Assembly (NCBI GenBank): GCA_012513815.1 | Contig: JAAZBM010000005.1 | Location: 1-64,000 of the forward strand | DNA from: Candidatus Sumerlaeota bacterium | Lineage (GTDB): Bacteria > Sumerlaeota > Sumerlaeia > Sumerlaeales > Sumerlaeaceae | DNA: 64,000 nt | Direction: 5' to 3' | Made by a program: the position numbers and the translations under genes | Notes under the pieces: generated by a model | Told to the model about the DNA's origin: nothing | Database searches by the model: none | The model's input: the letters and a program-made list of their open reading frames with translations, nothing else | In this document: positions 7,042 through 42,693 of the stretch, in pieces | Layout: the number at the start of each line of letters is the position of its first letter | Numbering within the stretch: the stretch's first letter is position 1

Positions 7042-9051
7042 ATGACAAAATATACAAGTTTACTCGTTGCGGCAGCATTCGCCATCACGGCAGCAGCCAC
7101 CGCAGCAGACACAAAGACTGTCCTCTGTGACTTTGAGAGCACAGTAGACTACAGTGGCAACGCCGCAACTTGGGCATCCCCGGCAATACAAGACACAGTC
7201 GTCCTTGCCAAACAAGCCGGCATATCCGGCAACGGCATCAAAGTTGACTACACCTATCAGGGTGACTCAGCATGCACATACGCCGGATTCCATTCATGGG
7301 ATTATCCGGTCGCGACATTTGCCACATCCGTTGATATGGCAGAGGCAGACGGCTTCTCCGTTTGGATTAAGAACGAAACAGTCAGCCCATTCAGCGTTAT
7401 GTTCTACGTCAAGGATGCGGCTGGCGAAGTCATGCGCATCATGTACTCCGGCCTGCTTCCAACCGCCCATACGGACTGGACAGAGGTCATGATTCCTCTG
7501 GCGCAATCCCCAACGGATGCCACCGGTGACTTCGGACACGGCCTCCAGACCTCCATCTGGAAAAACTCCGGGCGCGCCATCGACCTTTCGAAAATCGCCG
7601 AATTCGGTATCACCGTTTACGACCGTGAAGGCGTCCAAACCGACGGTTCCTTCTCGTTCGAACTCGACGACTTCTCATTCTTTGTAGGCACCGACAACGA
7701 ACAGGTCATCAAGAAGTTTGACTTTGCGACCGACAGCGCGACAGATTGGTCCTCCTTTGATGGCGGAGTTGTCTCTCAAGGCACCGGCACCATGAACCTC
7801 ACAACCACCCTTGCAACATGGGTTCCCAAAGGCGCCGAAATCGAATTGCCTGAAACAATCGACTGCTCCAATCTGGCCTATGCCAAGTTTGACGTCGAAG
7901 GCGATGCCATCATGGCCGCCGTCAATCCGACTCTCGACCTGCACCTCATCGACGTGAACGACAAAGTCATGGCCTCCTTGGCTTACAACGTACTCAAAGC
8001 CGCCGATGGTGGTGTTTCCTTTGCGCCCACGCACACAGCGGGATGCCAGGATCTTACTTATTATGGCCTCAGCTGCTGGCGCTTCGGCACATATAGCGGC
8101 GATTATAATGCCAACAAAGACTTCGACGCGACCCAAGTCAAGAAAATCAGAATTGGCTACGAACCTCAACAGGTGGCAGACCCGGACGTCGTCGGACAAG
8201 AAGCCACCATCAAGATTAAGAGCATGACACTGGCCGCCACCGCCAAGATACCGGTTGGACCGCAACCTGAAGGCGCGAAAACAATCGATTGCGTCTGGAC
8301 AGACCAGCCAATCGCCATGGACGGAACCGGGAGCGATGCCGCTTGGAACAAGGCCGCTTGGTCAACCGCAGCGTTCACACAACGCGGCTCAACCACAGAA
8401 GTCCCCGCTGACTTCCAGGGCAAATTCAAAACAATGTGGGATGAGACATCCATGTACTTCCTGCTTGAATTCGTCACAGGCGCCACCGATGGTAAGCACT
8501 ATGGCATCAACAACAACGCCAACCAGCTTGTCTCGGCCTACTACGACGGCACCAACTTCATGAACGAATTTGATATCTTCGTATCACCCGCAGGCAACAC
8601 ACAAGGCTCGAGCCATTACTATCAGATTATGCCTTACTTCGAAACAGACGCCACCGGACATCAGCCCACTGCTTCCAACAATGGCTTCTTCTTCGGTGCC
8701 ATCGATGCAGCAGGAAGCTGGGCCAACGTTACCTCCGCCAACATCGAAGTCAAAGCAAAAGAAGATTTGGGTGCCCAAAAAGTCACATTCGAAGTCAAAG
8801 TTCCTTATGCGGGCTTGAATGACGCAACAGCCAACGGTGGCGTTGCTCAAATGAGCAAACCCGCTGTCGGTGACACATGGTACGGCAACGTCTGCCACTG
8901 GGCCAACCAGTTTAGCGGCGACACGCCCAACACAGTGCTCGCGGTTTGGGGACAAGATCCTGCTGACCTCCAAGCATGGGGCAAAGCCTATCCCATGGGC
9001 TCCTTCAACTTCGTCTATGCTGCCGAAGTCGCAGACTGGGAACTTTTCTAA
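7042..9051 (+). CDS. Secreted multi-domain CBM9-like carbohydrate-binding protein with C-terminal DW tail
   Basis: The protein has 669 residues and a signal peptide (MTKYTSLLVAAAFAITAAAT, cleaved about residue 21). Two beta-rich jelly-roll-like regions follow: about 25-220, starting VLCDFES, and about 225-405, starting KKFDFATDSATDWSSFDGG. The C-terminal region (about 415-650) has the CBM9/DOMON-like pattern, with an I-A-M-D-G-T-G-S-D-A-A-W opening, then YFLLEF and YDGTNF. It ends EVADWELF, the tag shared with other exported proteins in the window. No catalytic motif is visible, so binding of plant or host glycans at the cell surface is the reasonable inference. It has its own promoter and a strong terminator. 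Confidence 0.75.
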   Translation: MTKYTSLLVAAAFAITAAATAADTKTVLCDFESTVDYSGNAATWASPAIQDTVVLAKQAGISGNGIKVDYTYQGDSACTYAGFHSWDYPVATFATSVDMAEADGFSVWIKNETVSPFSVMFYVKDAAGEVMRIMYSGLLPTAHTDWTEVMIPLAQSPTDATGDFGHGLQTSIWKNSGRAIDLSKIAEFGITVYDREGVQTDGSFSFELDDFSFFVGTDNEQVIKKFDFATDSATDWSSFDGGVVSQGTGTMNLTTTLATWVPKGAEIELPETIDCSNLAYAKFDVEGDAIMAAVNPTLDLHLIDVNDKVMASLAYNVLKAADGGVSFAPTHTAGCQDLTYYGLSCWRFGTYSGDYNANKDFDATQVKKIRIGYEPQQVADPDVVGQEATIKIKSMTLAATAKIPVGPQPEGAKTIDCVWTDQPIAMDGTGSDAAWNKAAWSTAAFTQRGSTTEVPADFQGKFKTMWDETSMYFLLEFVTGATDGKHYGINNNANQLVSAYYDGTNFMNEFDIFVSPAGNTQGSSHYYQIMPYFETDATGHQPTASNNGFFFGAIDAAGSWANVTSANIEVKAKEDLGAQKVTFEVKVPYAGLNDATANGGVAQMSKPAVGDTWYGNVCHWANQFSGDTPNTVLAVWGQDPADLQAWGKAYPMGSFNFVYAAEVADWELF

Positions 9052-9087
9052 AAACAACTTTCTTCTAACGAAGAAATTGACAAAAAA

Positions 9088-9117
9088 AACGCTCCGGGCA
9101 AAACCGGGGCGTTTTTT
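9088..9117 (+). terminator. Rho-independent terminator of the gene at 7042-9051
   Basis: The arm AACGCTCCGG (9088-9097) pairs with CCGGGGCGTT (9104-9113) with one G-T pair. The loop is 6 bases and a six-T run begins at 9112. Its 3' arm is also the beginning of the direct repeat that flanks the restriction island. Only this 3' half reappears at 12694. Confidence 0.85.
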
Positions 9118-9222
9118 AGTTATTATGTTTTTTTTTCTTGACTTCTTCAGAAACTACGGCTATACAAAATCATATAAAGGATATATGCGCATGAACAAAC
9201 TTAATATTATCGCATTGGCAGC
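9101..9222 (+). repeat. Left direct repeat of the restriction island (truncated promoter/start copy)
   Basis: These 122 bases repeat 12694-12841 almost perfectly. They run from the 3' half of the terminator through the promoter, ribosome-binding site and first 13 codons of the secreted gene now at 12804. The left copy lacks 27 bases just after the first half of the -10 box, so TATAAT became TATACA, and its reading frame ends soon after the junction. It is therefore a dead remnant, and the repeat marks the insertion site. Confidence 0.85.
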
Positions 9223-9250
9223 GTCCGTCCGTTTCGCTTTTGGGCAGACA

Positions 9251-9322
9251 AGGCGGCGGTTGCCGCCGATTTCCATTTAAGGGAATGGCACTTGCTATTA
9301 TGGGGAACGACGAATAGCAAGC
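9251..9322. repeat. Three consecutive hairpins at the left end of the island
   Basis: GGCGGC/GCCGCC pairs at 9252-9267 around GGTT. CCATT/AATGG pairs over roughly 9273-9288. CTTGCTATT/AATAGCAAG pairs at 9291-9299 with 9313-9321 as a perfect 9 bp repeat. The region lies between the island junction and the end of mcrC. It has no T-tract and no reading frame, so it could be a recombination end or the 3' UTR of the mcrBC mRNA. Confidence 0.4.
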
Positions 9323-9350
9323 AAATCCAGTGAGTACCCAAACCGGAAAT

Positions 9351-10727
9351 TCATACTTGGCAAGTAGGGCACGGCGGTACCCACTCGTGCGCTTGCTTGT
9401 TGGGGAACACGCTTATGAATTCCTGTTCCTGAGTCTTTATTTTTGTGGTAAATTCCGAGTAATTCTGTGCATCTACGGGAATTTTCAAGCCGTGTTTGGT
9501 AACGGTGATATCATCACATGGCATGACATTTCCCTCATAGGTCGAACCACGATTCATTCGTAATTTCTGGTCATCAACACCGGATGCCTCTGGATAAAGG
9601 TAATAGCCAGCCTTAGCATCAAAACGGAACATATAAGCCAGCACCTGCAAATAGTCCCGATTTCCGATGTTATTGATAGGTTTGTACTTGGCGTCTGCAA
9701 TAATCCGCATCTCGCTATTACGACTGATGAAATCGGGGTAGATAAGTCCAACATTCCCATCAAACAGTCTCTGCGCACCCAGTCTCTGCGCACCCTTGCT
9801 GCCTTTATTCATTGGGTGATAGAACATATCCTCTATCAGTGAATTGATGTATTCCTCCCACAACCATGCGCCGTCAAACAGGATGCCGTATATCTGCCTC
9901 GATCCCGAACCGATTTGGTGTTTCTGATGCCGAAGGATCAAAAGGCACAGCCTCTGTAAAGCAAGATATTCTCTAAAATAAGCGCGGCGGACAGTATTCT
10001 TTTTATTCTGTTCAATGATTTTCTGCCTATCATATGGCTCATATGTCGGAGTCGCATCTATAACGAGTTTTATTTCGTCTTTCACTTTGATAAGGAGGCT
10101 GTTCCCATAAGGTTTTCTTTTAATAAATTCAATGGTATGCCTTACCAGTTCCATCAGGCTATTGTCATAGGAAAACTCTCGCTGATTATAGGCAACATCT
10201 CCGGCAAAGGGTGTATTCTTCTCAATGTGCCGTGCAACATCTATTGTTCCTTTTACATTTCCGTCATTGTATCTGCGGCGGATGTACTTTTTGAATAAGC
10301 CCTTGCGCATAGCTGCTTTCAGGTAATGTGGAAACAGGAACAGCAGAAAATTGAACAGCCGATTGTCCTGATTGGCATCAGTTTGCAAATCAACAATATT
10401 AGGAAAGTCCAGAACTTTGTCCAAAAGATACCGGAAAAAGTAATCCTCACCCTTTCCGCAAAAACGGGATTCGATAACGAGCCGCTCATCACCGCAGCCC
10501 AGAAAGCCCATTACATTCCTTGTACAATAGGTGTCATTTACGCTTTTGAGAATCATCTGATCCTGCGTAATGTCCTCTGCATTTTTTAAGATTTCCGGGA
10601 ACACAAACACACCTTCACGCTCAAGCTGCTCCAAGGTTTTATCTGCTATTTTGCCTGTGAGGGTTCTGATTTGAGAAAATGACTCTTTTTTCTGTTGGGC
10701 GTTATCCTTGATCCTGAGTAGCTTCAT
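9351..10727 (-). CDS. mcrC: McrC-like nuclease subunit of an McrBC restriction system
   Basis: A protein of about 458 residues of the McrC family, the endonuclease partner of McrB in restriction of modified (methylated) DNA. The PD-(D/E)xK core is visible as LIYPDFISR followed by IIADAKYKP (about residues 335-355), giving the Asp and the D-A-K pair of the active site. The start MKLLRIKDNA at 10727 is chosen because AGAGGT lies 7 bases upstream. The longer frame, which adds 15 residues, lacks such a site. The gene overlaps the end of mcrB by 26 bases. The C-terminus has an odd CPTC pair. Confidence 0.88.
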   Translation of the reverse strand: MKLLRIKDNAQQKKESFSQIRTLTGKIADKTLEQLEREGVFVFPEILKNAEDITQDQMILKSVNDTYCTRNVMGFLGCGDERLVIESRFCGKGEDYFFRYLLDKVLDFPNIVDLQTDANQDNRLFNFLLFLFPHYLKAAMRKGLFKKYIRRRYNDGNVKGTIDVARHIEKNTPFAGDVAYNQREFSYDNSLMELVRHTIEFIKRKPYGNSLLIKVKDEIKLVIDATPTYEPYDRQKIIEQNKKNTVRRAYFREYLALQRLCLLILRHQKHQIGSGSRQIYGILFDGAWLWEEYINSLIEDMFYHPMNKGSKGAQRLGAQRLFDGNVGLIYPDFISRNSEMRIIADAKYKPINNIGNRDYLQVLAYMFRFDAKAGYYLYPEASGVDDQKLRMNRGSTYEGNVMPCDDITVTKHGLKIPVDAQNYSEFTTKIKTQEQEFISVFPNKQAHEWVPPCPTCQV

Positions 10728-12693: not shown

Positions 12694-12841
12694 AAACCGG
12701 GGCGTTTTTTAGTTATTATGTTTTTTTTCTTGACTTCTTCAGAAATAACGGCTATAATTAATTAAGTGATAGGGAAACCATATCAAAATCATATAAAGGA
12801 TATATGCGCATGAACAAACTTAATATTATCGCATTGGCAGC
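12694..12841 (+). repeat. Right direct repeat of the restriction island (intact copy)
   Basis: This is the 148-base intact partner of 9101-9222. It starts in the middle of the upstream gene's terminator (AAACCGGGGCG) and ends in codon 13 of the gene at 12804. It keeps the full -10 box and the 27 bases missing from the left copy. Confidence 0.85.
12730..12758 (+). promoter_or_regulatory. Sigma70-type promoter of the secreted protein at 12804
   Basis: TTGACT (12730-12735) and TATAAT (12753-12758) are separated by exactly 17 bases. The left repeat copy carries the same -35 box but a deleted -10 box, which supports these as the working elements. Confidence 0.75.
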
Positions 12842-14228
12842 TTGCGCCTTCGCGCTTGCCTCCGTTGCGGACGCAATTCCATTCGCGTCAAAAGTAGCGG
12901 CGACGAATAAAACCGTCGCGACAAACGCAAATATTGACGTAACCTACTTCCTCAATGAGGCTGCGCAAGACGTGGCCGTCAATCTTCTTGACGCAAGCGA
13001 CAATGTCGCCGCAACCGCCGTTGGAACAACCGCAGCGGGCGTCAATAGCGCGACCGTCAAAGCCCCTGCTACTGCTGGTGCATACAGACTTCAGATTTCT
13101 GTCACCGGCGCCGCCGCCGAGCAAAAAGTCATCAACGCCTTTTACTCGGAATACTGGGATGAAGGAGCCAACCCCATTGCGGACGCCTGCCCCGATGCGA
13201 CACGCTCCATCTATAACGGTTTCTCGCCCCGTGGCGCTCTGGCCGTGACGGATCAAGACCTTGACAACTTCGGACGCATCATGATGATTTCGGCCTTGGG
13301 CAGCGACCACTGTTGGGCCATGAACACTGACGCCGCTCTTGGATGGTGGTTCCCGACCGAAACTCAAAAAGGTAAAGACACAGCCAATGTCAAATCCGCT
13401 TCAGCGCCTGCCAGTTCCATGGTTATGAGTGCAGGTTGGATGCCCGACGGTCAAACATCACTCCAATACTCCGGACAAAATGGCAATACCAACCCTAGCG
13501 CAGGTTACGCGTTCCAAGTTGGTGGAACAGATGATACGGATATCGTCGACAAAACAAACGGTATGCTGAGTGGACTCTATGCCCGCGGCGCCACAGTATT
13601 TGACTATGGTGACAAACGCTACCTCCTTCAGGCAGCCGGTGGTAATTTCTATCGCGCCGAAATGGACAAGACAACCAACTTGCCCGATGAGGCAACCCGC
13701 ATTACGTTGTTGACCGGTGCCACCTCGGCGAAAAATGCCTTTACCTATGGTGACCATGTCTATTGCGTCGACAGAACAGGCAAAAAGGTTTATCGTTTCA
13801 CGACTGAACAACTCGCCAATGCTACGGAAGGAATGGCTCTTCCCACTGCGGAATGGATTGCCGACTGCGCCGCTGGCGAATCGATTACTTACGTCTGCTT
13901 CGGACCGCAAGGCGAAGTATACGCAATGAACAGAGGTAGCTCCTCCACAGATATTCTTTATCTCGGAAACGACAGCGAAGCCACCAGTTCCAAAGTCGTC
14001 GACTTAGCGGCCGACACCGTTGCCTCGCTTGCGTTCACGGTTAACGCAACCTATGGTTGCTTCGCCACTGACCCCGCCGGAAACTTCATCATCGGCGACA
14101 ATGGCAAGGAAATTCTTGTCGCGCTTGCCCCCGCCAACACCGGCGGCACATTCGCGACCAAAGCGCCTCTCTCACAGAACATCACTGTTGAATCGGGCGC
14201 TGGTGTTGCGGACTGGACACTGCAGTAA
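12804..14228 (+). CDS. Secreted Ig-like plus beta-propeller-like protein with C-terminal DW tail
   Basis: The protein has 474 residues and a signal peptide (NKLNIIALAACAFALASVADA). Next comes an Ig/FlgD-like strand-rich module of about 80 residues (VAATNKTVATNANIDVTYF to GAYRLQISVTG). A long repeat-rich body follows with blades resembling a beta-propeller (GDKRYLLQAAGG, GDHVYCVDRTG, GPQGEVYAMNRG). It ends GAGVADWTLQ, a variant of the exported-protein tag. No enzyme motif is seen. ATG codons occur at 12804 and 12810; the second has better spacing from AAAGGA at 12795-12800. Before the island inserted, the gene directly followed the one at 7042. Confidence 0.75.
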   Translation: MRMNKLNIIALAACAFALASVADAIPFASKVAATNKTVATNANIDVTYFLNEAAQDVAVNLLDASDNVAATAVGTTAAGVNSATVKAPATAGAYRLQISVTGAAAEQKVINAFYSEYWDEGANPIADACPDATRSIYNGFSPRGALAVTDQDLDNFGRIMMISALGSDHCWAMNTDAALGWWFPTETQKGKDTANVKSASAPASSMVMSAGWMPDGQTSLQYSGQNGNTNPSAGYAFQVGGTDDTDIVDKTNGMLSGLYARGATVFDYGDKRYLLQAAGGNFYRAEMDKTTNLPDEATRITLLTGATSAKNAFTYGDHVYCVDRTGKKVYRFTTEQLANATEGMALPTAEWIADCAAGESITYVCFGPQGEVYAMNRGSSSTDILYLGNDSEATSSKVVDLAADTVASLAFTVNATYGCFATDPAGNFIIGDNGKEILVALAPANTGGTFATKAPLSQNITVESGAGVADWTLQ

Positions 14229-18387: not shown

Positions 18388-20325
18388 CTAAAAGAGCGAC
18401 CAGTCGGTAACGGCAGCACCTGCGCCGAATCGGACTGCGCCCATCGGATGCGCGGATGCGCCCGAGGGTGGGTTGTTAGGATCGACACACCACATGGAGT
18501 CTTCGGAGGCTTCTGTCGTGTCGCTGGTTGTCCAGCTGCTACGGGAGACCTGGAGGTACCATTCATCGCCATCGGCAGGCGCGGGCTGAACAGCGACACT
18601 GCCCGTGTTGCAAGCAGCAACGGTAAGCGAGGTGTAAGGAACCGCAATTTCGAAGACAACTTTGTCTGTCATTTCTTTAGCTTTGCAAATGATTGCGCCA
18701 GAGGATTGATCCCAACCGCCCCAACCTGGGGTGTAGGTCGCGCCGTAGACATAACCGTTGTTCGAGCCGGAGGGTTGATGCGCACTCGAGTCTGTCTCCA
18801 TGTATTGGCAAATCTGGTAGATGCCACCGTCGCTGTTGTTCTTGGGGCACAGCCAAACGCCGAAGCTGTCTACCCAGTCACCAGTATCGGGGTTGTAGTA
18901 ACCTCTTTGGTTCTGGTAGCTGTTGGCATCGGGAGCATAGAACTTTTTGGCGGTCGCGCCGGTGAAGTACTCAACCAAGAAATACAGTTGGTTGTCGTCA
19001 TACATAACCTTGAACTGGCTCTGGAAGTCTGCGCCTGCGGCAACGCCGGCATCTTTTTCGAAGCCGTTTGCCCACGGGGCTTGGAGCCACTGAGCATCGC
19101 TACCTGTACCGTCGAAGACGAGGGGCGATGTTGCTCTAACAGCGGTAACTGTCTTGTAGGGAGGAGGAACGATTGTTTTGATACCGGTGAGTTCTTCAAT
19201 CCAAACATTGGCTTGGACTGCGTTGACGCTGTCGCCGTTGTTCATGAAGGTGAACCTGACGGTCTTAATTTTGGTCATATCCAAATTTTTGTCGCCGTCC
19301 CATACGTTCTGGATGAAGACGCCATCTGCAGCTCCACTTGCACTGCCAAGGATAACGGGCATGTCAACGGTGACCCATTCGTTGATTGTGGCGGCGGCAT
19401 TCATGCGAGCGTCTGCCTGTGCGCCATTTTCGTCGATCAGGTTTAACTGAACATAGCCGGCCAAACCGCCTTCGTTGACAATGTTACCCTTTAACTTCAC
19501 GCGAACGGAACTGTATTGCGAGAGGTCGGTAATGGTGGGCAGATCCTTCCGGAATCCGCTTGTATACCAGTGGTCACCGAATTGGATATCGGCCCTAAAG
19601 GCGTTGCCGTCTTTGGTGACAGCGACTGTGTTATCTGCAACATGGTTTTCATCTGTGTATCCGCCACCGTTGTAGACTTCCCAGTCAGCAACGTTTTCGC
19701 ACTTCAGGATGCTCTCGGATGCTTTGGTCACGGGGGCTGTGTCGTCGAAGCGAATGTTGTCAATCCAGTAGCCGTTTGTATATGTGGGGCTTTCGGCTGC
19801 AGCATTCAAATAGGTCGCGAAAACAAGCTTGGTGATGCGCGAAATCGCGACGTTGTTGACGTACGCATTGCCGCGAGAGTTGACCGTAAACTTGTCGAAT
19901 GAACAGACCATTTCCTGCCATTCGGTCGTCGTGCTTTTGTCGACGCTGCAGAAATAGCCATTGTCTTTCTCGTCAAGGGCAAGGATGAACATGGGGATGC
20001 TTTTGCCGTTGGCGTCATTCATCAACTTGGTGTTGAATTTGATTGACGTGAACGCGCTGAGGTCAATGGGTTGTGCCAGCGGGCAAACAGCCATGTATTC
20101 CCAATAGGCATCACCCCAGTTTGCATACGAAACTTTGATGCTCCCTGCGCCTTCGAACTTTTCGGTGGCGTCAAACTCGACGACGGTTTCACGTTGACCG
20201 TTATAGCCGTGTTGTTCCCATATCCAACCGCCAAGTTGGTTGCAGTCGTCAAGCACAACTTCCGCACCCATTGCGGGAACGGCTAGCGCGACAGCTGCCA
20301 ATAAACTGAAAGAGTATTTCATCAT
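18388..20325 (-). CDS. Secreted multi-domain CBM9-like protein with C-terminal DW tail
   Basis: The protein has 645 residues and a signal peptide (MMKYSFSLLAAVALAVPAMG). It has the same plan as the 669-residue protein at 7042: two jelly-roll-like domains (about 22-205 and 212-385), then a CBM9-like C-terminal domain. That domain opens SPLVFDGTGSDAQWLQAPW and includes YFLVEYF and WVDSFGVWL. It ends GAAVTDWSLF, the exported-protein tag. No catalytic residues are apparent; glycan binding at the cell surface is inferred. AAAGGAG lies 11 bases upstream of the first of two adjacent ATG codons. Promoter and terminator are both clear, so it is transcribed alone. Confidence 0.75.
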   Translation of the reverse strand: MMKYSFSLLAAVALAVPAMGAEVVLDDCNQLGGWIWEQHGYNGQRETVVEFDATEKFEGAGSIKVSYANWGDAYWEYMAVCPLAQPIDLSAFTSIKFNTKLMNDANGKSIPMFILALDEKDNGYFCSVDKSTTTEWQEMVCSFDKFTVNSRGNAYVNNVAISRITKLVFATYLNAAAESPTYTNGYWIDNIRFDDTAPVTKASESILKCENVADWEVYNGGGYTDENHVADNTVAVTKDGNAFRADIQFGDHWYTSGFRKDLPTITDLSQYSSVRVKLKGNIVNEGGLAGYVQLNLIDENGAQADARMNAAATINEWVTVDMPVILGSASGAADGVFIQNVWDGDKNLDMTKIKTVRFTFMNNGDSVNAVQANVWIEELTGIKTIVPPPYKTVTAVRATSPLVFDGTGSDAQWLQAPWANGFEKDAGVAAGADFQSQFKVMYDDNQLYFLVEYFTGATAKKFYAPDANSYQNQRGYYNPDTGDWVDSFGVWLCPKNNSDGGIYQICQYMETDSSAHQPSGSNNGYVYGATYTPGWGGWDQSSGAIICKAKEMTDKVVFEIAVPYTSLTVAACNTGSVAVQPAPADGDEWYLQVSRSSWTTSDTTEASEDSMWCVDPNNPPSGASAHPMGAVRFGAGAAVTDWSLF

Positions 20326-29249: not shown

Positions 29250-32200
29250 TCAAACTTCGGTAGCCGCTTCGCGGAACTGCCTGACGATGTCACGAACAGT
29301 CGAGCTGTCCTCATCGACAAAATCGATTCTCATTCTGCGAATTCCGGCGGCAACCATAGCGGGAACATTCGCCAACATGGACTTAGGTTCACTAGCGTAA
29401 ACAATATTGCGGCAAGCGTCATCTGTTTTGACAACGTGGTCGACGCCTTTGCGGTCGCGGAGCGAGATATTCTTGAACTCGCACTGTCTGCCACATTCGG
29501 GGAACTTCGTTGCTTCGTTCGGCGCGGTGTGTTTGCAGTAGAGGCAATGCTCCGTATAGAACATCGGAATTCGCTGATAGACAACCGGCTCGAACCACGC
29601 GGGCACACTGTTTTCGAGCAATGCGCAAATGTTTTCGATTGCGAGTTCGGGCGAGAAAGCCATCCGCTCGAAACCGGCTTTGCGCATGAGCGCCGCCGTG
29701 AGGTCGTTGGCGATATTCATCGAGAAGTCCGCCGTCATTGGAACGGGGCAATTGCTCTGCTGAAGAATCTGCCATTGCGCCGGACCACGAACGAGCAAGG
29801 CATCCGGGTACGAATTGAGTAGCGTCCGCACATAGTGCGTCTCGCCGGGTTTGATTGCGCGGATCGTGGCCGGGGCAAACCGCGGGCCGTCCTCGCCAAT
29901 CATCTCGCGAACCTGAACATACTGACGCGGGTCTTCGAGTTCAACATAAATCGTGTCGATGTTTTCGAGAAGTTTCACCGCTTCGATTTGCTCGATTGTA
30001 CGGCAAAGAACGGAAATTTTTGTTTCGCTGGCCGGAACAACTTCCTTGCCAAACTCCTCCGCGAATTCCGTCTTGATTTCCTCACGCATCTGCGCAAGCG
30101 CCATCTCATCAACGGGTCGATTTGTGCCTTTCTCTCTTCTCTTTTCGAGCAGCGCTTCGACAGCGCTCCGTCTGATGTTATTCAGTCGGCTGAGCGGCAC
30201 CATCATGTTCTCGTCGATGTTCGCTTCGAGGCGGCGCAGTCTGAACGGGGTGTTGCCCATTCTCCCGATTTGAACCTCGAGTGTCTCCTGCGTTAATGGT
30301 CTGTCATTCGCCCATTCCGCGTCTTCCGTATCCTCGACCGTCACTTCGTTGCCGAAACTATCGGTCATGGTCATCTTGAGTTTATCGCCGACTTTGCCTT
30401 CGACTTCCGCCACGACCGGTCGCCGATAGAGGAATTCCGCGTTCTTGTAGGTCGCGTCGAGCATCTGTTCGAGTTCGACATCGCTCGTCTTCCAAACTCT
30501 GTCGCCACGGTTCACTCGCTCCGTAACAAGGGCGTCGTTGCCGAACGACAACATGAATCTGAGGGGCGCTTTTTCTGTCGGCGCGACCGAATCAAACTTT
30601 TGTCCACCGCGTTCGATGGTGTAGACACGTCCGCCTTCTTCCTGACTTTCGGCGCGATTGCCACATTCAAAAACAACGCCGTCGCCGGTGCGCAACGGTG
30701 CGCAAAGCTGAACTTCGACCATGCCGGTCTTCGTCACGAACACAACTTCACCGATAAGCATACCGTGATTCTTCGGTGTCTTTCCGTCGACAAGAGTCTG
30801 ATGATTGGTGCCGTTGAGATGTCCGGTGGAAAGCCCACGGCTGAAAGACATTTCGAGTTTGCGTTTGATTTCAGGTGTCATCACCGGGCGCGAGGGTCTC
30901 GCCTTCGCGTGAGGTGGCATGGCTTGGTCGATGCCATCGCGATACGACGAAATCACCGCCGCGACATATCTCGCGTTTTTCAATCTGCCTTCGATTTTCA
31001 GTGCAGCAACTCCCGCGCTAATCATATCGCCGATAAGCGGGAAAGCGCAAAGGTCGTTGGGCGACAACGGGAAGCGAACGAGGTTCGCGTCGCGGATGGG
31101 TTCTCCGTCAACGCAAAGGGTGTAGGGCAAACGGCACGGCTGCGCGCAAACACCGCGATTGGCGCTGCGGCCTCCGAGCGCTTCGCTGGCACAGCAAAGC
31201 CCACTGTAACTCATGCACAACGCTCCATGCGCGAACGCTTCAATTTCGATATTCGTTTCATCCGCAAGTCTCTTGAGTTCAGCGATGCTGAGTTCGCGAG
31301 GCGCGACGGCACGCGAGAAGGCAAGCCCCCATGTGTTGGTGGCGTGAACAGCCTCGGCGCATGTCAGCGCAGCTTGTGTGCTGGCGTGTCTGGGGAGTTC
31401 GGGCGCAAGTTTGGACATGAGCCACGCAAGTCCGAGGTCCTGGATCAGGACGGCATCGACACCGGCGTTGCTGCATGTCAGCACAAGTCCCGCCGCTTCG
31501 TCAAGCTCGTTCGTGAAAATGAGCGTGTTCAGCGTGACAAAACCGGAGAGACCTCTCTCGTGGAGAGTCCGCATAATTTCGGGGAGTTCTTCCGACGTGA
31601 AATTGTTTGCGCCACGCATCCGCGCGTTAAAATTGTTCAGACCAAAGTACACCGCATCCGCGCCGTTTTCGATAGCGGCCTTCAGCATCTCGCGGCTCCC
31701 GACAGGCGCGAGCAATTCCGGTTTGCGGCCGGCAACCTTAGGGATGGCAAGCTCGCTCAAATACTCGGAATTCTCGCCTCTGTCGGCAAAACGTTTTCTG
31801 TCGCCGAAAGAGCCACGGTCACGGTCACGGTCACCAAAGGATTTGCGTTCACGGTCGCGTTCGCCATACGGCTTACGCTCGCGGTCGCCAAAGGAACTTC
31901 TCTCACGGTCGCCATAAGGTCTGCGTTCGCGGTCACCAAAGGAGCCTCTGTCGCGGTCACGGTCACCATACGGTTTACGCTCACGGTCGCCGAATTCGCG
32001 CCGATGCGAGAAATCGCCGAAACCATATTCTTCTTCGTTTTCCTCGCGACGGGGGCGGCGTGGTTCCTGCACCGCGTTCGGGTCATACAGACCCTTGAAC
32101 ATGCGGCGATTGGGGGGACGGAAAAAACTGTCTTCGGGTTTCGTCTCGTAACGTGGGCGCTCATCGCGGTGGTCGCGGTCGCCATAAGATCTGCGCTCGC

Positions 32201-32810
32201 GGTCACGGTCACCATACGGCTTACGCTCGCGGTCACCGAACGGCTTGCGGTCTCTGTCGCCATAAGGTTTTCTATCGCGGTCGCCAAACGGTTTGCGGTC
32301 ACGATCTCCAAAAGACCTATGCTCTCTGTCGCCGAACGGTTTGCGATCTCTGTCGCCATAAGGCTTACGGTCACGGTCGCCGAAGGGCTTGCGCTCTCTA
32401 TCACCATAAGGCTTGCTGTCTCTGTCGCCGAACGGTTTGCGGTCTCGGTCACCGTAAGGTCTGCGCTCGCGATCACCAAAAGGTTTACGGTCTCTATCGC
32501 CGAACGGCTTGCGTTCTCTGTCGCCATAAGGTTTTCTATCGCGGTCACCGAATGGCTTCCGGTCACGGTCGCCATAGGGTTTACTGTCGCGCTCGCCATA
32601 AGGCTTTCTATCGCGGTCTCTGTCTCTATCTCCGAACGGTTTACGTTCTCTGTCGCCATAAGGTTTTCTATCGCGGTCACCGAATGGCTTCCGGTCACGG
32701 TCGCCATAGGGTTTCCGGTCACGATTCCCAAAAGGTTTCCGATCGCGATCTCCAAAAAGTTTGCGATCGCGGAATCCGCCTCCGCCTCTATTTCCGTTGT
32801 TATCTCTCAT
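29250..32810 (-). CDS. U32 peptidase family (RlhA/YdcP-like) protein with long Arg-Asp repeat tail
   Basis: The protein is 1186 residues. Residues about 350-1186 form a U32 family protein: PELLAPVGSREMLKAAIENGADAVYFG, AFAHGALCMSYSGLC and the Cys-rich RSANRGVCAQPCRLPY, then a DUF3656-like C-terminal region. The best-known relative, E. coli RlhA, hydroxylates C2501 of 23S rRNA, so RNA modification is a reasonable role. Residues 1-345 are low complexity, built from an 8-residue unit RDRKP(F/Y)GD. An acidic/aromatic interruption near residues 215-270 breaks the array. Such a tail is not part of ordinary U32 proteins and may bind RNA or drive condensation. A ribosome-binding site (AAGGAG) sits inside the end of queD, so the two genes are coupled. 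Confidence 0.82.
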   Translation of the reverse strand: MRDNNGNRGGGGFRDRKLFGDRDRKPFGNRDRKPYGDRDRKPFGDRDRKPYGDRERKPFGDRDRDRDRKPYGERDSKPYGDRDRKPFGDRDRKPYGDRERKPFGDRDRKPFGDRERRPYGDRDRKPFGDRDSKPYGDRERKPFGDRDRKPYGDRDRKPFGDREHRSFGDRDRKPFGDRDRKPYGDRDRKPFGDRERKPYGDRDRERRSYGDRDHRDERPRYETKPEDSFFRPPNRRMFKGLYDPNAVQEPRRPRREENEEEYGFGDFSHRREFGDRERKPYGDRDRDRGSFGDRERRPYGDRERSSFGDRERKPYGERDRERKSFGDRDRDRGSFGDRKRFADRGENSEYLSELAIPKVAGRKPELLAPVGSREMLKAAIENGADAVYFGLNNFNARMRGANNFTSEELPEIMRTLHERGLSGFVTLNTLIFTNELDEAAGLVLTCSNAGVDAVLIQDLGLAWLMSKLAPELPRHASTQAALTCAEAVHATNTWGLAFSRAVAPRELSIAELKRLADETNIEIEAFAHGALCMSYSGLCCASEALGGRSANRGVCAQPCRLPYTLCVDGEPIRDANLVRFPLSPNDLCAFPLIGDMISAGVAALKIEGRLKNARYVAAVISSYRDGIDQAMPPHAKARPSRPVMTPEIKRKLEMSFSRGLSTGHLNGTNHQTLVDGKTPKNHGMLIGEVVFVTKTGMVEVQLCAPLRTGDGVVFECGNRAESQEEGGRVYTIERGGQKFDSVAPTEKAPLRFMLSFGNDALVTERVNRGDRVWKTSDVELEQMLDATYKNAEFLYRRPVVAEVEGKVGDKLKMTMTDSFGNEVTVEDTEDAEWANDRPLTQETLEVQIGRMGNTPFRLRRLEANIDENMMVPLSRLNNIRRSAVEALLEKRREKGTNRPVDEMALAQMREEIKTEFAEEFGKEVVPASETKISVLCRTIEQIEAVKLLENIDTIYVELEDPRQYVQVREMIGEDGPRFAPATIRAIKPGETHYVRTLLNSYPDALLVRGPAQWQILQQSNCPVPMTADFSMNIANDLTAALMRKAGFERMAFSPELAIENICALLENSVPAWFEPVVYQRIPMFYTEHCLYCKHTAPNEATKFPECGRQCEFKNISLRDRKGVDHVVKTDDACRNIVYASEPKSMLANVPAMVAAGIRRMRIDFVDEDSSTVRDIVRQFREAATEV
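31795..32790 (-). repeat. Array of degenerate 24 bp repeats coding (RDRKP[F/Y]GD)n
   Basis: Roughly 1 kb of tandem 24-base units encodes the basic-acidic tail of the U32 protein. A non-repeat interval lies at about 31995-32155. Units differ at silent positions and at Phe/Tyr, Lys/Arg and Asp/Glu, which points to old expansion under protein-level selection. The repeat also keeps other frames open on both strands, which are not genes. Confidence 0.85.
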
Positions 32811-33509: not shown

Positions 33510-35486
33510 ATGAAAAAGTTAATTCCATGCTTGTTCATCCTCACCGTTTTGCTCGGTTGCTCAAACGTTTATGCCGATGACGCCGCTCGTCCCGTCGCCT
33601 TATCGGCGGATGGTCGCGCTGTGTTAGAATGCGCCTCGGGCGATTTTGGTCTGAGGTTGCGCGATATGAATTCGTCCGATTCGGTTCTACTCGTTTCGAA
33701 CGATTATGCTTGCTACTACGGAAGTTTTTCGGCAGATGGCAGTCGCGTCGGCTACAAGGACTATGTCCCGTCAGACAATGGTTCTCTCTTGCAGGTGCCT
33801 TCGGTTTACTTGCGCGACACCGGTCGCGTGATTCGTCTGAGTTCGCCGACAGCCGTCGCAGGCAATCCATCTTTTGGTGGGTCGGATGCCATTGCGTGGA
33901 CATGTGGCGAAGCACTTTTTGTTTTGCGAATTGACGCGGATGGAACGCTCGCCGCTCCCCGCCAAAAGTCCCTTGGTTTCGTCGCGAATCATTGCGCCGT
34001 GTCGCCCGATGGTTCCCGCGTCGTTGTTATATCCCCGACAGGCGATGTGTATGTGGTTGCGCCGGATGCCGATACAATGCGGCGGTGCGGCCATGTCGAT
34101 GGCGGATTCGCGCCGATCTTCAGTCCTTCCGGCGATCGTGTACTGGTGACGACGAGCCGTGGAGATATGGCTGTCGTAGCCATCGCGACGGGCAACGTCA
34201 CAACGATTCGCCGCACATGCATGGGTGCTCCCGAAGCATGTTGGTTAGGCGATGACGCCGTCGGCTTCTCGCAGTACGAGAGCAACGGCGATGTCACGGC
34301 ACGAACGCAACGTGTGCGGGTTGACGTGAATTCGATGACGACACACAGTTTATTTTCGCGCAATTTCGACGCCCGCATCGTGACGAACACGAAGGGTGAC
34401 GCAGCGGTCGCGAACAGTGCGGAGATTGCCCGTGCATCGCGCGCTTTGCGCAATACTCGCGCGCAACAACCTGCGGCGCCAACGGGCACTCCCACCAAGT
34501 CGAACGGAAAAGTGACCGTCGGCACGAGTGTTTATTTCACGGGACTGATTCCGTACCTCAACCAAGTTTACGATTCACTGGACTTATTCTCCGGCGGTCA
34601 TTCTTGTTGCGGTTCGGTCGCGAGCATTATGGCCACCCAGTACTACTGGAAGCTGCCACCCAAACCTACGGTCACGTCCAAAGGCGGGAGTCATATCTCC
34701 TACTGGGGCTCATATATCTCTGATATTTTCACCATCAACGGCAAGACCTTCAACGCAGCTTCGAGCACCGCATGGGGCGAGGATTTGGCTGGCTATTACG
34801 GTGTTTTCGGGTGGTTCCTGCAAGACTACAACGCGTCATCACTGGGCCGGAGCAAGCGGCTCGCCGAGTTCATCAGCGCCTGCGGACTCACCTCATCGTG
34901 CGATGATTCCGTCTCGGGCGAGACCGGCATCACCAAGGCCCGCACCGAAATCGATAACGAGTATCCCTTTGTTGTCCTGAACAGCATCACCTCATCGGGC
35001 CACTACACAACCTGCATGGGTTACGTCAAGAATCAGCACACGTTGATTTTTTACGACCCCTACGGCAACAAGAATATCTCCTATCCTAGCAAAGATGGCC
35101 GACTGGCGTATTATGACACGCCGGGTCACAACAATGGCTACATGAATCTAAACTCGGTCTGGCGCTTCATTTACGCCCGCGGTTCCAATCCTACGAGTTT
35201 GACCTTGTCCGCCACGAGTAGTGTTTTGAATGCCGGAAAGTCCGTGCAAGTCAATGCCGTCGCGACAATGAACAAGGGCGGGTCACGCACCATCAACACC
35301 GCTGTAACATGGGGTTCGAGCAATACGTCCGTCGCAACAGTCAGCGAGAGTGGCGTCGTCACCGGGTCAGGAAGTTTGACAAAGGACAGTACGGCAAATA
35401 TCTGCGCGAATTATCAGAACTTCACGGCCGTTTATCCCGTCACAGTCCGCGCAAATGCCAACATCACAGACTGGAATGAGCAATAG
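33510..35486 (+). CDS. Secreted C39-like cysteine peptidase with beta-propeller and Ig-like domains and DW-type tail
   Basis: A 658-residue exported protein. The signal peptide MKKLIPCLFILTVLLGC could be a lipoprotein signal (LLGC) or a cleaved one ending at VYA. Residues about 30-310 are WD/TolB-like propeller strands (FSADGSRVGYKD, VSPDGSRVVVI). Residues about 345-560 are a papain-like C39-type peptidase: Cys in GGHSCCGSVAS, His in SSGHYTTCMGYV and Asp in LIFYDPYGN. An Ig-like BIG2-type domain follows (SLTLSATSSVLNAGKSVQV to GVVTGSGSL). The protein ends NANITDWNEQ, a variant of the exported tag. It probably degrades proteins or peptides outside the cell. Confidence 0.75.
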   Translation: MKKLIPCLFILTVLLGCSNVYADDAARPVALSADGRAVLECASGDFGLRLRDMNSSDSVLLVSNDYACYYGSFSADGSRVGYKDYVPSDNGSLLQVPSVYLRDTGRVIRLSSPTAVAGNPSFGGSDAIAWTCGEALFVLRIDADGTLAAPRQKSLGFVANHCAVSPDGSRVVVISPTGDVYVVAPDADTMRRCGHVDGGFAPIFSPSGDRVLVTTSRGDMAVVAIATGNVTTIRRTCMGAPEACWLGDDAVGFSQYESNGDVTARTQRVRVDVNSMTTHSLFSRNFDARIVTNTKGDAAVANSAEIARASRALRNTRAQQPAAPTGTPTKSNGKVTVGTSVYFTGLIPYLNQVYDSLDLFSGGHSCCGSVASIMATQYYWKLPPKPTVTSKGGSHISYWGSYISDIFTINGKTFNAASSTAWGEDLAGYYGVFGWFLQDYNASSLGRSKRLAEFISACGLTSSCDDSVSGETGITKARTEIDNEYPFVVLNSITSSGHYTTCMGYVKNQHTLIFYDPYGNKNISYPSKDGRLAYYDTPGHNNGYMNLNSVWRFIYARGSNPTSLTLSATSSVLNAGKSVQVNAVATMNKGGSRTINTAVTWGSSNTSVATVSESGVVTGSGSLTKDSTANICANYQNFTAVYPVTVRANANITDWNEQ

Positions 35487-36575: not shown

Positions 36576-36588
36576 TTTTTTTTGATTT

Positions 36589-36630
36589 ACACTCAAAGCC
36601 ACAACACCGGTTTTGAGTGTTGTTTTTTTT
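36589..36630 (+). terminator. Terminator of the tRNA-Lys gene
   Basis: A 12 bp stem (36589-36600 with 36609-36620, one G-T pair) around an 8-base loop is followed by TGTTTTTTTT. It starts 14 bases after the tRNA. Confidence 0.88.
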
Positions 36631-36798
36631 GGTGTTTTGGGGACGATTTTTGTGAGGATTTAGCATTTAGTAACAGAGATACATCGATTTATTGTGGTTT
36701 ATATAGGGTGGTATACAGTAAAGAGATATATTTTGTAGCTCGCTAATACTGAGAAATACAAGGTCTTGTGCTTTTTTTGAGCAAAGGCGCTTTTTTTC

Positions 36799-39797: not shown

Positions 39798-39829
39798 CGG
39801 ATTCGTTTTGAGAACGAATTCGTTTTTTT
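39798..39829 (+). terminator. Terminator after the FtsL-like gene
   Basis: CGGATTCGTT (39798-39807) pairs with AACGAATTCG (39813-39822) with one G-T pair around TTGAG, followed by seven T. It stands directly before the end of the convergent aroA gene. Confidence 0.85.
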
Positions 39830-41243
39830 ATTTTGTGGCCATGAGTTGTCGGATTTTGTCCCATTGCTCCCAGAATTGCGGAAATGACTTCGCGACACAG
39901 TCCGTATTGTCAAGTTTGACAGTAATCCCAATAAGTTCCAGAAGTGAGAGGCTCATGGCAAGTCTGTGGTCGTTGTGCGCGGAGAAGAAAACCGAGGTGT
40001 TCCGGAGATTTGCTCTCTGGATATTGTTCAGTTGCTGGATAATCAACGTGCCATTTTCCATCTTGGCAGTGGCGCCGATGCGGTCAAGCTCCTGAATAAT
40101 CGCCTGAATCCGATTGCTTTCCTTTAGTTCAAGGTGTTCGACTCCGTAGAGTTTGGTCGGGCCAGAATACGCGATGGCACCGAGCACGGCAACCGTGGGC
40201 ACAAGGTCAGGATACGAAGACATATCCCACTCGACACCGCAGAGTTCCCCGGCTGAGGCCGGTTTCGCTGTAACACAGACTTCGTCGGTCACAATGGTCG
40301 CGCCCATCTTCTTGAGGATTTGAGTGATAACCCGGTCGCCCTGTAGCGATGCTTTGTCGAGACCTTCGACTTGAACCGACATTGGCCCGAGTGCCCCGGC
40401 CGCGAGGAAGTAGGAAGCCGTTGACCAGTCGGCATCGCAAGAAACCTTTGAGGGTTTGTAGGTGGACGGGCTGATGTCAAACTTGATATAACCCGGCTTG
40501 GGCATTTCTTCCATTTTCCGCCAATCAATCGGCGCCCACTCATCAAGCAACTTGCGCCGCGTCGAGACGACGACTTTCACACCGAACATTTCCATCGCGT
40601 CAAGCGTCAGCAACACATACTTCCACGACGCGATTCTTCGGCCGGTTGGGAATATGGTCACCGGCGTTTTCGCGAGAGGTGCCGCGAGCAAAAGCCCGGA
40701 AAGATACTGATTTGTGTCGGCGCAATCAATCTCGATGCGACCGCCATTAATTCCGTTGGCGATAATGATGAACGGCGTGTGCCACTCTCTGCCGAGAAAC
40801 TCAAACTGGCATCCTTGTTGTTGGAGCACCTTCAGCAGTGGTTCGATTGGTCTCTCGTCCATTCTCTCGCTGCCAAAAACATGGAAGCGTGTCCCGGAGA
40901 TCCCGATTGCCGCAAGCACAGGCGTCAGGAATCGGCATGTTGTCCCGGAATCGCCGACGCAACAGGAGAATCCCTGGATATCGTTGGAGTAGAGCGGGTT
41001 GCCCTTTCCGAGGGGAATGCCCATGATTTCGAGTTTTCTGGCTCCGCATGCGCCTTTGCCCTTTGCAAGCACGACCGCTCCGGCGGCAGCGAGGACTCCG
41101 GCAGTGCGACGGGTGTCGGCACAGTCGAGATTATTCTCGAGAGTTGACGTCCCATCCGCAAGCGCCGCGCATATCCCAAGACGATGTGACATAGACTTAG
41201 ACGGGCATACTTGTATATTCGCAGTTTGAGTAATCATTTTCAT
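39828..41243 (-). CDS. aroA: 3-phosphoshikimate 1-carboxyvinyltransferase (EPSP synthase)
   Basis: A 471-residue enzyme of the shikimate pathway joining shikimate 3-phosphate and PEP. Signatures include the N-terminal KSMSHRLGICAALADG, NSGTT-like GDSGTTCRFLTPVLAA (about residue 100), QYLSGLLLAAPLA, and the late LKESNRIQAIIQELDRIG with HNDHRLAMSLSLLEL. It is somewhat longer than the usual 430 residues. It is the last gene of the aromatic operon with ADH synthase and chorismate mutase; 93 bases separate it from the mutase gene, and no terminator or clear promoter is seen between them. Met 3 is an alternative start. Confidence 0.92.
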   Translation of the reverse strand: MKMITQTANIQVCPSKSMSHRLGICAALADGTSTLENNLDCADTRRTAGVLAAAGAVVLAKGKGACGARKLEIMGIPLGKGNPLYSNDIQGFSCCVGDSGTTCRFLTPVLAAIGISGTRFHVFGSERMDERPIEPLLKVLQQQGCQFEFLGREWHTPFIIIANGINGGRIEIDCADTNQYLSGLLLAAPLAKTPVTIFPTGRRIASWKYVLLTLDAMEMFGVKVVVSTRRKLLDEWAPIDWRKMEEMPKPGYIKFDISPSTYKPSKVSCDADWSTASYFLAAGALGPMSVQVEGLDKASLQGDRVITQILKKMGATIVTDEVCVTAKPASAGELCGVEWDMSSYPDLVPTVAVLGAIAYSGPTKLYGVEHLELKESNRIQAIIQELDRIGATAKMENGTLIIQQLNNIQRANLRNTSVFFSAHNDHRLAMSLSLLELIGITVKLDNTDCVAKSFPQFWEQWDKIRQLMATK

Positions 41244-41336: not shown

Positions 41337-41639
41337 CTATTTCTTTTCACTGTTAATTCTCTCTTGCAGTCTGACAGAAGCGCTCACAATTTCGTTCCAT
41401 ATTTCGCTAATGTCGTCATTTGTTAACGGTCCCTGATTCAATGCTTGCAGCGCGAGTTTGACCTGTTCCTCACGCTGCGGACACTTAACCGCCGCCCCCG
41501 GGCAACGGCTTTTCAGCCCCCCGATTTCCAAAGCAACTGACGTTCTTTGATTCAGCAAAGCGAGTATCTGTTTATCGATACTGTCAATCTGATTTCTGAG
41601 GTCAGACAACTTCATATCAAACTCGGTTTTGCCGGTCAT
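41337..41639 (-). CDS. Chorismate mutase (AroQ type)
   Basis: A 100-residue all-helical protein with the AroQ fold pattern. [33 protein letters not shown] carries the first-helix Arg and the Arg/Lys of the active site. [38 protein letters not shown] gives helices 2 and 3 with a terminal Gln. It converts chorismate to prephenate, the branch point to Phe and Tyr. Its ATG overlaps the stop of the ADH synthase gene (ATGA), and Met 9 is a possible alternative. Regulation is probably through the attenuator upstream of the operon. Confidence 0.85.
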
Positions 41640-42439
41640 GCGTTTTCTCCCGTCGCGTCGAGCGCCTGTTCGAGCGACCAGTTCTCGTGGACAAGGCCGC
41701 GCAGAGCCGTGAGTAGCTTTTGCGGATCGGGATTCTGGAAGATGTTACGGCCGACGCTGAGACCGGAGGCACCCGCCCGAATGCTGTCTCTTGTCATGGT
41801 CAGGAATGCCTTGGTCGTGTCCAGTTTGGGACCACCGGCGATAACGACAGGGATGCAGCTACCTGCGACGACTTTGGAGAACGTCTCCACGCTGCCTGTC
41901 CATCCGACCTTCACGACGTCCGCCCCGAGTTCCATGCCGACACGAGCGCAATGCGCGACGAGTGTGGGGTCGTATTCGTTCTTGATGTTGGGGCCTCTGC
42001 CGTACACCATCGCCAGCAACGGGACACCCCACTCACGTGCGACACTTGATACATACCCGAAGTCCACGAGCATATCGTGCTCGGTTTCGTCTCCGATGTT
42101 GATGTGAACCGACACAGCATCCGCACCAAGCCTAAGCGCGTCCTCGACCGTTGCGACGAGGGCTTTGGCGTTCGGGAATGGTGACAGTGAGGTACTGGCA
42201 CTCAGGTGCAAGATAAGCCCGAGGTCACGCCCGCTCGATCTGTGGCCGCATCCGACAAGTCCCTTGTGCATAAGCACTGCGTCTGCGCCGCCTTCGGCGA
42301 TTTTGCTCACCGTCTGCCGTATGTCAACAAGTCCGTCAATGGGGCCTACGCTGACTCCATGGTCGAGTGGGACGATGATGGTACGTCCGTCCTGTCTGTT
42401 AATTAAGCGTTCCATGCGAATCGCTTTTCCGATATTCAT
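41636..42439 (-). CDS. ADH synthase / DhnA-type class I aldolase family protein
   Basis: A 267-residue protein of the DeoC/FbaB-like aldolase family. It matches the form called 2-amino-3,7-dideoxy-D-threo-hept-6-ulosonate (ADH) synthase: [26 protein letters not shown] (Schiff-base region near residue 55), [12 protein letters not shown] and [12 protein letters not shown] (lysine near 176). ADH synthase makes the precursor of dehydroquinate in archaea that lack DAHP synthase. Linkage to chorismate mutase and aroA supports an aromatic role over glycolysis. No dehydroquinate synthase II gene is in the window. GGGAGA precedes the ATG by 5 bases. Confidence 0.82.
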
Positions 42440-42486: not shown

Positions 42487-42536
42487 AAAAAAAAGACCGC
42501 AAGCTCGATTGAACCTCTCACGAGCCTGCGGTCTTT
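42487..42536 (-). terminator. Attenuator terminator in the leader of the aromatic operon
   Basis: The 5' arm 42536-42521 and the 3' arm 42507-42492 form 16 base pairs (one G-T) around a 13-base loop. Eight consecutive T (42494-42487) follow on the minus strand. It lies 29 bases after the leader peptide stop codon and 48 bases before the ATG of the ADH synthase gene. No gene other than the leader peptide ends upstream, so it can only serve as an attenuator. Confidence 0.85.
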
Positions 42537-42602
42537 ATCCGTCGAAAAAGCCGGATTTACTTCATTATAAATCCGAAATTTCCGCGCAGCCCGCAGGCCT
42601 CG
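42521..42602 (-). promoter_or_regulatory. Predicted antiterminator pairing of the aromatic leader
   Basis: CGAGGCCTGCGG (42602-42591), inside the leader peptide frame just after its Tyr codons, can pair with CCGCAGGCTCG (42531-42521). That gives 8 uninterrupted GC-rich pairs, then one bulged G, then three more. The second segment is the 5' arm of the terminator, so the two structures exclude each other. A separate small hairpin (42552-42559 with 42568-42575) contains the leader stop codon. Confidence 0.7.
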
Positions 42603-42693
42603 CGTAAGCGTAATAAAAATAAAATTGCCAGCTCGCGGCAACAATGTCGCGAGGATTGTTCATCGTTATTCTGCTGTAAATTTCGGTTTTCAT
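42565..42693 (-). CDS. Aromatic-rich leader peptide controlling the aromatic operon
   Basis: A 42-residue frame, or 32 residues from the second Met at 42663. Residues 22-30 read WQFYFYYAY: one Trp, two Phe and four Tyr within nine codons. The peptide then continues ARPAGCAEISDL to a TAA. Composition and position match leader peptides such as PheL or TrpL, where stalling on scarce charged tRNA alters folding of the leader RNA. The segment able to form the antiterminator begins one codon after the last Tyr. It should not be a functional protein in itself. The first ATG is preceded by only a weak GGA. Confidence 0.8.
   Translation of the reverse strand: MKTEIYSRITMNNPRDIVAASWQFYFYYAYARPAGCAEISDL

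Follow-up and report, generated by a model that had tools for sequence, protein, structure and literature searches.

The window, by which we mean the whole stretch of 64,000 nucleotides of Candidatus Sumerlaeota bacterium DNA that was analysed, carries on its minus strand an aromatic biosynthesis operon consisting of the genes for ADH synthase (ADHS; 2-amino-3,7-dideoxy-D-threo-hept-6-ulosonate synthase), chorismate mutase (CM) and EPSP synthase (aroA). Ahead of these genes, at 42693-42487, lies a leader for which the initial annotation had proposed ribosome-mediated attenuation, and all the elements it noted there were found:

42565..42693, minus strand: leader peptide ORF, 42 codons, MKTEIYSRITMNNPRDIVAASWQFYFYYAYARPAGCAEISDL
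42604..42630, minus strand: control codons W22-Y30, WQFYFYYAY, nine codons with 1 Trp, 2 Phe and 4 Tyr
42591..42608, minus strand: antiterminator strand CTTACGCGAGGCCTGCGG, conserved and covarying in 43 leaders
42598-42591, minus strand: antiterminator core GCCTGCGG, within the strand 42591..42608
42551..42576, minus strand: small hairpin TCGGATTTATAATGAAGTAAATCCGG, between the antiterminator strand and the terminator, containing the leader stop codon
42515..42536, minus strand: terminator 5' arm with part of the loop; its alternative partners are the antiterminator strand (through 42531-42515) and the terminator 3' arm (through 42536-42521)
42487..42507, minus strand: terminator 3' arm and T8 tract
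41636..42439, minus strand: ADHS (TIGR01949, 382.6 bits, cut-off 299.45)
41337..41639, minus strand: CM, type II, 100 aa (PF01817)
39828..41243, minus strand: aroA, EPSP synthase (TIGR01356)

Anatomy of the leader

The 42-codon ORF with WQFYFYYAY at codons 22-30 and the 16-bp terminator with its T8 tract ahead of the first structural gene are both present as first described. The terminator pairs 42536-42521 with 42507-42492 around a loop of 13 nt, is followed by T8 at 42494-42487 and has an energy of -28.3 kcal/mol. The segment said to be complementary to the 5' arm of this hairpin exists as well, although its extent had been drawn too short, at 42602-42591: it occupies 42608-42591 and pairs with 42531-42515 in a 16-bp helix interrupted by a single bulge (G42599) and a single A/A mismatch. 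RNAduplex predicts -27.1 kcal/mol for this interaction, two further pairs being counted, which is near the value for the terminator. The arm 42531-42521 is common to antiterminator and terminator, and the two structures are mutually exclusive.

The leader thus described unites an upstream short ORF, with a run of codons for the end products of the operon, and a rho-independent terminator between that ORF and the first gene, as expected of an attenuator. Among 20,000 dinucleotide shuffles of the region, 8 contained a short ORF with at least seven F/Y/W in nine codons, and the predicted fold of the leader region has -84.5 kcal/mol, compared with a mean of -57.9 for shuffled sequences (z = -5.7). 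The gene upstream of the leader (42848+) is divergent, so that the terminator can serve only transcripts entering the aro operon and must lie in their 5' leader. Transcription starting downstream of the terminator had been named as an observation that would speak against attenuation; no consensus promoter is found between the terminator and ADHS, which is a weak test, and the sequence ahead of the window's leader ORF showed neither a good promoter nor a Shine-Dalgarno site.

Elsewhere in the window, four predicted proteins (7042-9051, 12804-14228, 18388-20325 and 33510-35486), most of them with a signal-like N-terminus, share a short C-terminal motif in the versions VADWELF, VADWTLQ, VTDWSLF and ITDWNEQ, possibly a sorting or anchoring signal of the lineage. 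A further protein of 1186 aa (29250-32810, minus strand) has a long N-terminal repeat of the RDRKPFGD/RDRKPYGD type, followed by what appears by eye to be a U32-type peptidase domain.

Conservation and covariation in relatives

A genome scan with an ADHS alignment yielded 80 loci, mostly from Desulfobacterota, on which all prevalence figures given here rest. An aromatic-rich short ORF stands upstream of ADHS in at least 45 of the 73 relatives with usable upstream DNA, nearly always with 8-13 residues from the aromatic run to the stop; the window's leader peptide has 12 after its last aromatic residue. The same type of leader precedes more than 40 Desulfobacterota ADHS operons. Alignment of leaders from orthologous operons, which the initial annotation had suggested as a check, was carried out with MAFFT on 43 leaders of one type without use of pairing information and recovers both the conserved short aromatic peptide and a covarying antiterminator stem.

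In this alignment the antiterminator helix (columns 78-87 with 143-152) has 94.7% of its cells paired, a value that drops to 35-42% in controls with the partner shifted by 1-3 columns, and its covariation score was reached by none of 500 shuffles. The terminator helix is 91% paired. Column pair 81-149, the one freely varying position of the antiterminator helix, is UA in 28 leaders, CG in 7, UG in 6 and AU in 1, with one other or unpaired; in 33 of the 43 leaders column 149 faces a mismatch in the terminator, which therefore cannot account for the covariation. When changes are placed on the ADHS tree, the arm position has changed about 11 times and its partner about 7 times, and a conservative tree-aware test on independent pairs gives 2-3 pairs for and none against, a number that alone is too small for significance. 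The antiterminator is therefore, as in an attenuator, both exclusive with the terminator and conserved with compensating changes, and the aromatic codons and alternate pairing, whose absence from relatives would have told against the original proposal, are kept in them. A covariance model built from 42 relatives alone, the window being left out, returned the window's leader as the top match in the 1.88-Mb genome (38.2 bits, E = 3.7e-6); the second match, at 36582-36645, lies directly after a tRNA gene (E = 0.09).

What is conserved in the short ORF is its aromatic content, the spacing to the antiterminator and the RNA that encodes the tail of the peptide. This pattern bears on two other explanations. 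The ORF might encode a functional small peptide acting in trans, with attenuation absent or secondary, and the presence of the peptide in many genomes and the precedent of Sinorhizobium peTrpL, which has trans roles besides attenuation (PMC7298713), would agree with this; the N-terminal residues, however, are not conserved, and other groups keep the logic with other sequences, which makes such a peptide very unlikely. Control of the terminator by a T-box, a riboswitch or an RNA-binding antiterminator protein is scarcely credible: the one hint of it is a match to bglG-cis-reg far below threshold (31.6 bits, where the gathering score is 80), whereas no Rfam family reaches its gathering threshold in the window or in the loci of 13 relatives, with nothing convincing at E <= 1, and a codon run held at a fixed distance from the antiterminator is a signal readable only by a ribosome.

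ADHS loci of Desulfobacca-like, Syntrophobacterales and other deltaproteobacterial genomes show the same logic as the window's attenuator-type leader in unrelated sequences. In L089, L091 and L105, UGCGCC...CUUUUAAAAG pairs with CUUUUAAAAG...GGCGCA, and in L095 UGUCUGCC pairs with GGCAGACA. In all, leaders whose antiterminator sequences differ from those of the main type form three more groups (L089/L091/L105/L084, L086/L094/L107 and L095/L101), in one of which GUCGAGG near the leader start complements CCUCGAC beside the antiterminator, a possible protector. A Pseudodesulfovibrio clade of ADHS (L068, L071, L081, L082, L097) is without a recognisable attenuator, and the genome of at least one of its members has a second ADHS (L035).

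The starts of the leaders also fall into classes. TTGAC precedes the leader ATG by 35-40 nt in 24 of 45 leaders (among them L033, L035, L037, L040-L044, L047, L048, L050, L051, L057-L059, L064, L066, L067 and L069), nearly always without a Shine-Dalgarno motif, and this spacing should place the transcript start at the AUG or directly beside it, making the leader peptides leaderless. A second class has a spacing of 54-61 nt, often with a Shine-Dalgarno motif.

Ribosome position and the antiterminator

The last aromatic codon starts 9 nt before the antiterminator core in 31 of the 43 leaders and 8 nt before it in the window. From the end of the core to the stop codon the distance ranges over 13-25 nt and is 13-16 in 32 of the 43; the window has 23, and some relatives likewise have 22-25. 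Masked folds were computed with a ribosome set at each codon in turn, for the RNA lying beyond it and with transcription halted before the terminator 3' arm, the ribosome being modelled as a hard block and folding kinetics left out. On these terms the antiterminator probability in the window is 0.8-1.0 while the A site lies between W22 and A29, 0.2 at Y30 and 0 from R32 on, and in 15 relatives the antiterminator is likewise lost at or just past the last aromatic codon. A ribosome stalled in the aromatic run thus leaves the antiterminator strand free and an advancing one covers it, the geometry that an attenuator calls for.

Together with the elements themselves, this geometry, the conservation, the covariation and the predicted folds support the original attenuator reading in its essentials, and from them we infer transcription start, leader translation, stalling and switching. 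RNA polymerase would start upstream of the leader ORF with a ribosome following. Were charged Phe-, Tyr- or Trp-tRNA scarce, the ribosome would stall in WQFYFYY, its front edge not quite reaching the antiterminator strand (42608-42591). This strand could then capture the terminator 5' arm (42531-42515) while the 3' arm is still unmade, and polymerase would read on into ADHS, CM and aroA. When aromatic amino acids are abundant, the ribosome would pass over the antiterminator strand toward the stop codon, the covered strand would leave the 16-bp terminator to form, and transcription would end near 42487. Three RNA segments would suffice for this: the antiterminator strand, the shared arm and the terminator arm.

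The pairing that would normally hide the antiterminator segment had been called not obvious, and indeed no protector of the four-segment type of E. coli trpL occurs in the predicted folds; a 7-bp candidate in the window, CCTCGCG/CGCGAGG, was rejected as absent from them. On this point the original reading needs correcting. In the modelled folds without a ribosome the antiterminator forms with a probability of 0.90 in the window and at least 0.83 in 13 of the 15 relatives, its strand apparently hidden by nothing, and no protector is needed if an advancing ribosome covers that strand. The ribosome therefore probably brings about the off state by moving into the antiterminator strand and continuing to the stop codon. 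A ribosome at the window's own stop codon, 23 nt away, would not cover the antiterminator, which makes the off state less certain for the window. As the antiterminator is predicted to form without a ribosome, removal of the leader start codon is expected to raise expression.

Origin of the operon and comparison with known attenuators

The operon differs in affinity from its surroundings. The window's ADHS is 60-71% identical to those of Desulfovibrionales and in a quick tree falls inside a 60-row clade rich in that order (SH-aLRT 100), on a long branch (0.49) whose exact neighbour is unsure; at E <= 1e-60 ADHS is absent from the other genomes of the same class that were searched. The CM resembles the CM domain of Desulfovibrionales CM-prephenate dehydratase (identity up to 44%), and aroA is 38-45% identical to Desulfovibrionales, whereas full-length matches from its own taxonomic family reach about 29-31%. 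DHQ synthase II, encoded away from the ADHS operon, is 67% identical to that of Nitratidesulfovibrio and was found in none of 20 relatives. The flanks of the operon are native, RNR being 64-69% and uppP 55-60% identical to family mates. The gene of this Desulfovibrionales-like DHQ synthase II (L121:9358-10353, minus strand) and a gene for chorismate synthase, by sequence aroC, point away from each other, and no leader was noticed in the short gap between them.

The only PF00793 match in the genome is a truncated DAHP synthase with two in-frame TAGs (L122, G000:C10:288000-306000, at about 8977-9378), 52-55% identical to family mates and adjoining an intact prephenate dehydratase gene, apparently a pseudogene of the displaced native entry enzyme. 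Canonical aroB, present in all eight relatives searched, was not found in the genome, whose assembly is 66% complete, so that gene absences are weak evidence. Since ADHS, DHQ synthase II and aroA are Desulfovibrionales-like, the neighbours native and the native DAHP synthase a pseudogene, the operon, leader included, probably entered the lineage from Desulfovibrionales by horizontal transfer, as judged from these sequence affinities. The initial annotation's attenuated archaeal-type entry enzyme thus stands insofar as ADHS lies under an attenuator-type leader, but operon and leader are those of Desulfovibrionales.

A leader acquired in this way could have become a non-working relic, its ORF decaying and its terminator simply constitutive. 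In favour of this, the recipient is only distantly related, the spacing is 8 nt instead of 9, so that the antiterminator strand falls in a different frame, the stop codon comes later than in most relatives, and the start and promoter signals are weak. Yet the aromatic run, the core antiterminator and the terminator have been kept despite the large divergence indicated by the ADHS end branch, and the window's antiterminator helix has been lengthened to 16 bp by changes in both strands, where a relic would lose complementarity; we consider decay unlikely. The leader is very likely a three-segment, ribosome-mediated transcription attenuator of a family that precedes ADHS operons in Desulfovibrionales and in other Desulfobacterota, and it probably arrived with its operon.

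Identity with a known Rfam leader family or T-box was considered and rejected, no match reaching the gathering score. The literature searched, mostly open-access, contained no report of an attenuator for ADHS operons or Desulfobacterota and nothing relevant on leader peptides of Desulfovibrio or of deltaproteobacteria, so novelty is provisional. Rodionov 2004 does not cover aromatic amino acids, the accessible portions of PMC1262725 and PMC2965389 report no ADHS leader, and that of the latter, on premature-terminator families, mentions neither Desulfovibrio nor aromatic nor aroF. Provisionally, the leader represents a new family of a known kind. The chances seem evenly balanced for the fuller proposal, namely an undescribed Desulfobacterota attenuator family that reads Phe, Tyr and Trp together, is protector-less, often has a leaderless AUG and is portable, having crossed with the ADHS operon that replaced a native DAHP synthase route under attenuation. 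Archaeal-type aromatic entry in sulfate reducers would gain a concrete, testable regulator, none having been found described before; a protector-less attenuator design has its geometry visible across dozens of genomes; and a pathway entry point and its cis-regulatory RNA would have moved together into a distant lineage in which the displaced enzyme is still visible as a pseudogene.

The leaders trpL and pheL of E. coli combine a leader peptide bearing control codons with an antiterminator exclusive with a rho-independent terminator, ahead of an aromatic biosynthesis operon, and the present leader shares this plan. It differs in that no protector is predicted, for which reason it is not classed as a trpL-type four-segment attenuator, in reading Phe, Tyr and Trp in one run, in preceding genes of the ADHS route and in having no sequence similarity that Rfam recognises. 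Corynebacterium glutamicum ilvL, in which terminator and antiterminator overlap and transcription starts one nucleotide from the leader start codon, resembles the near-AUG start inferred for many Desulfobacterota relatives, but senses branched-chain amino acids, has an anti-antiterminator and belongs to another phylum (PMC11857589). Sinorhizobium meliloti trpL is alike in that its attenuator RNA begins with the start codon of the leader and precedes an aromatic operon, although trpL reads Trp only, controls trpE(G) and has its added trans roles (PMC7298713). Candidate attenuators of Actinobacteria, for which the accessible portion of PMC1262725 gives no conserved structures in most other amino acid pathways, and those of PMC2965389, as far as its accessible text goes, are like the present family in that they too were predicted by comparing leaders and have complementary triples conserved over a long range.
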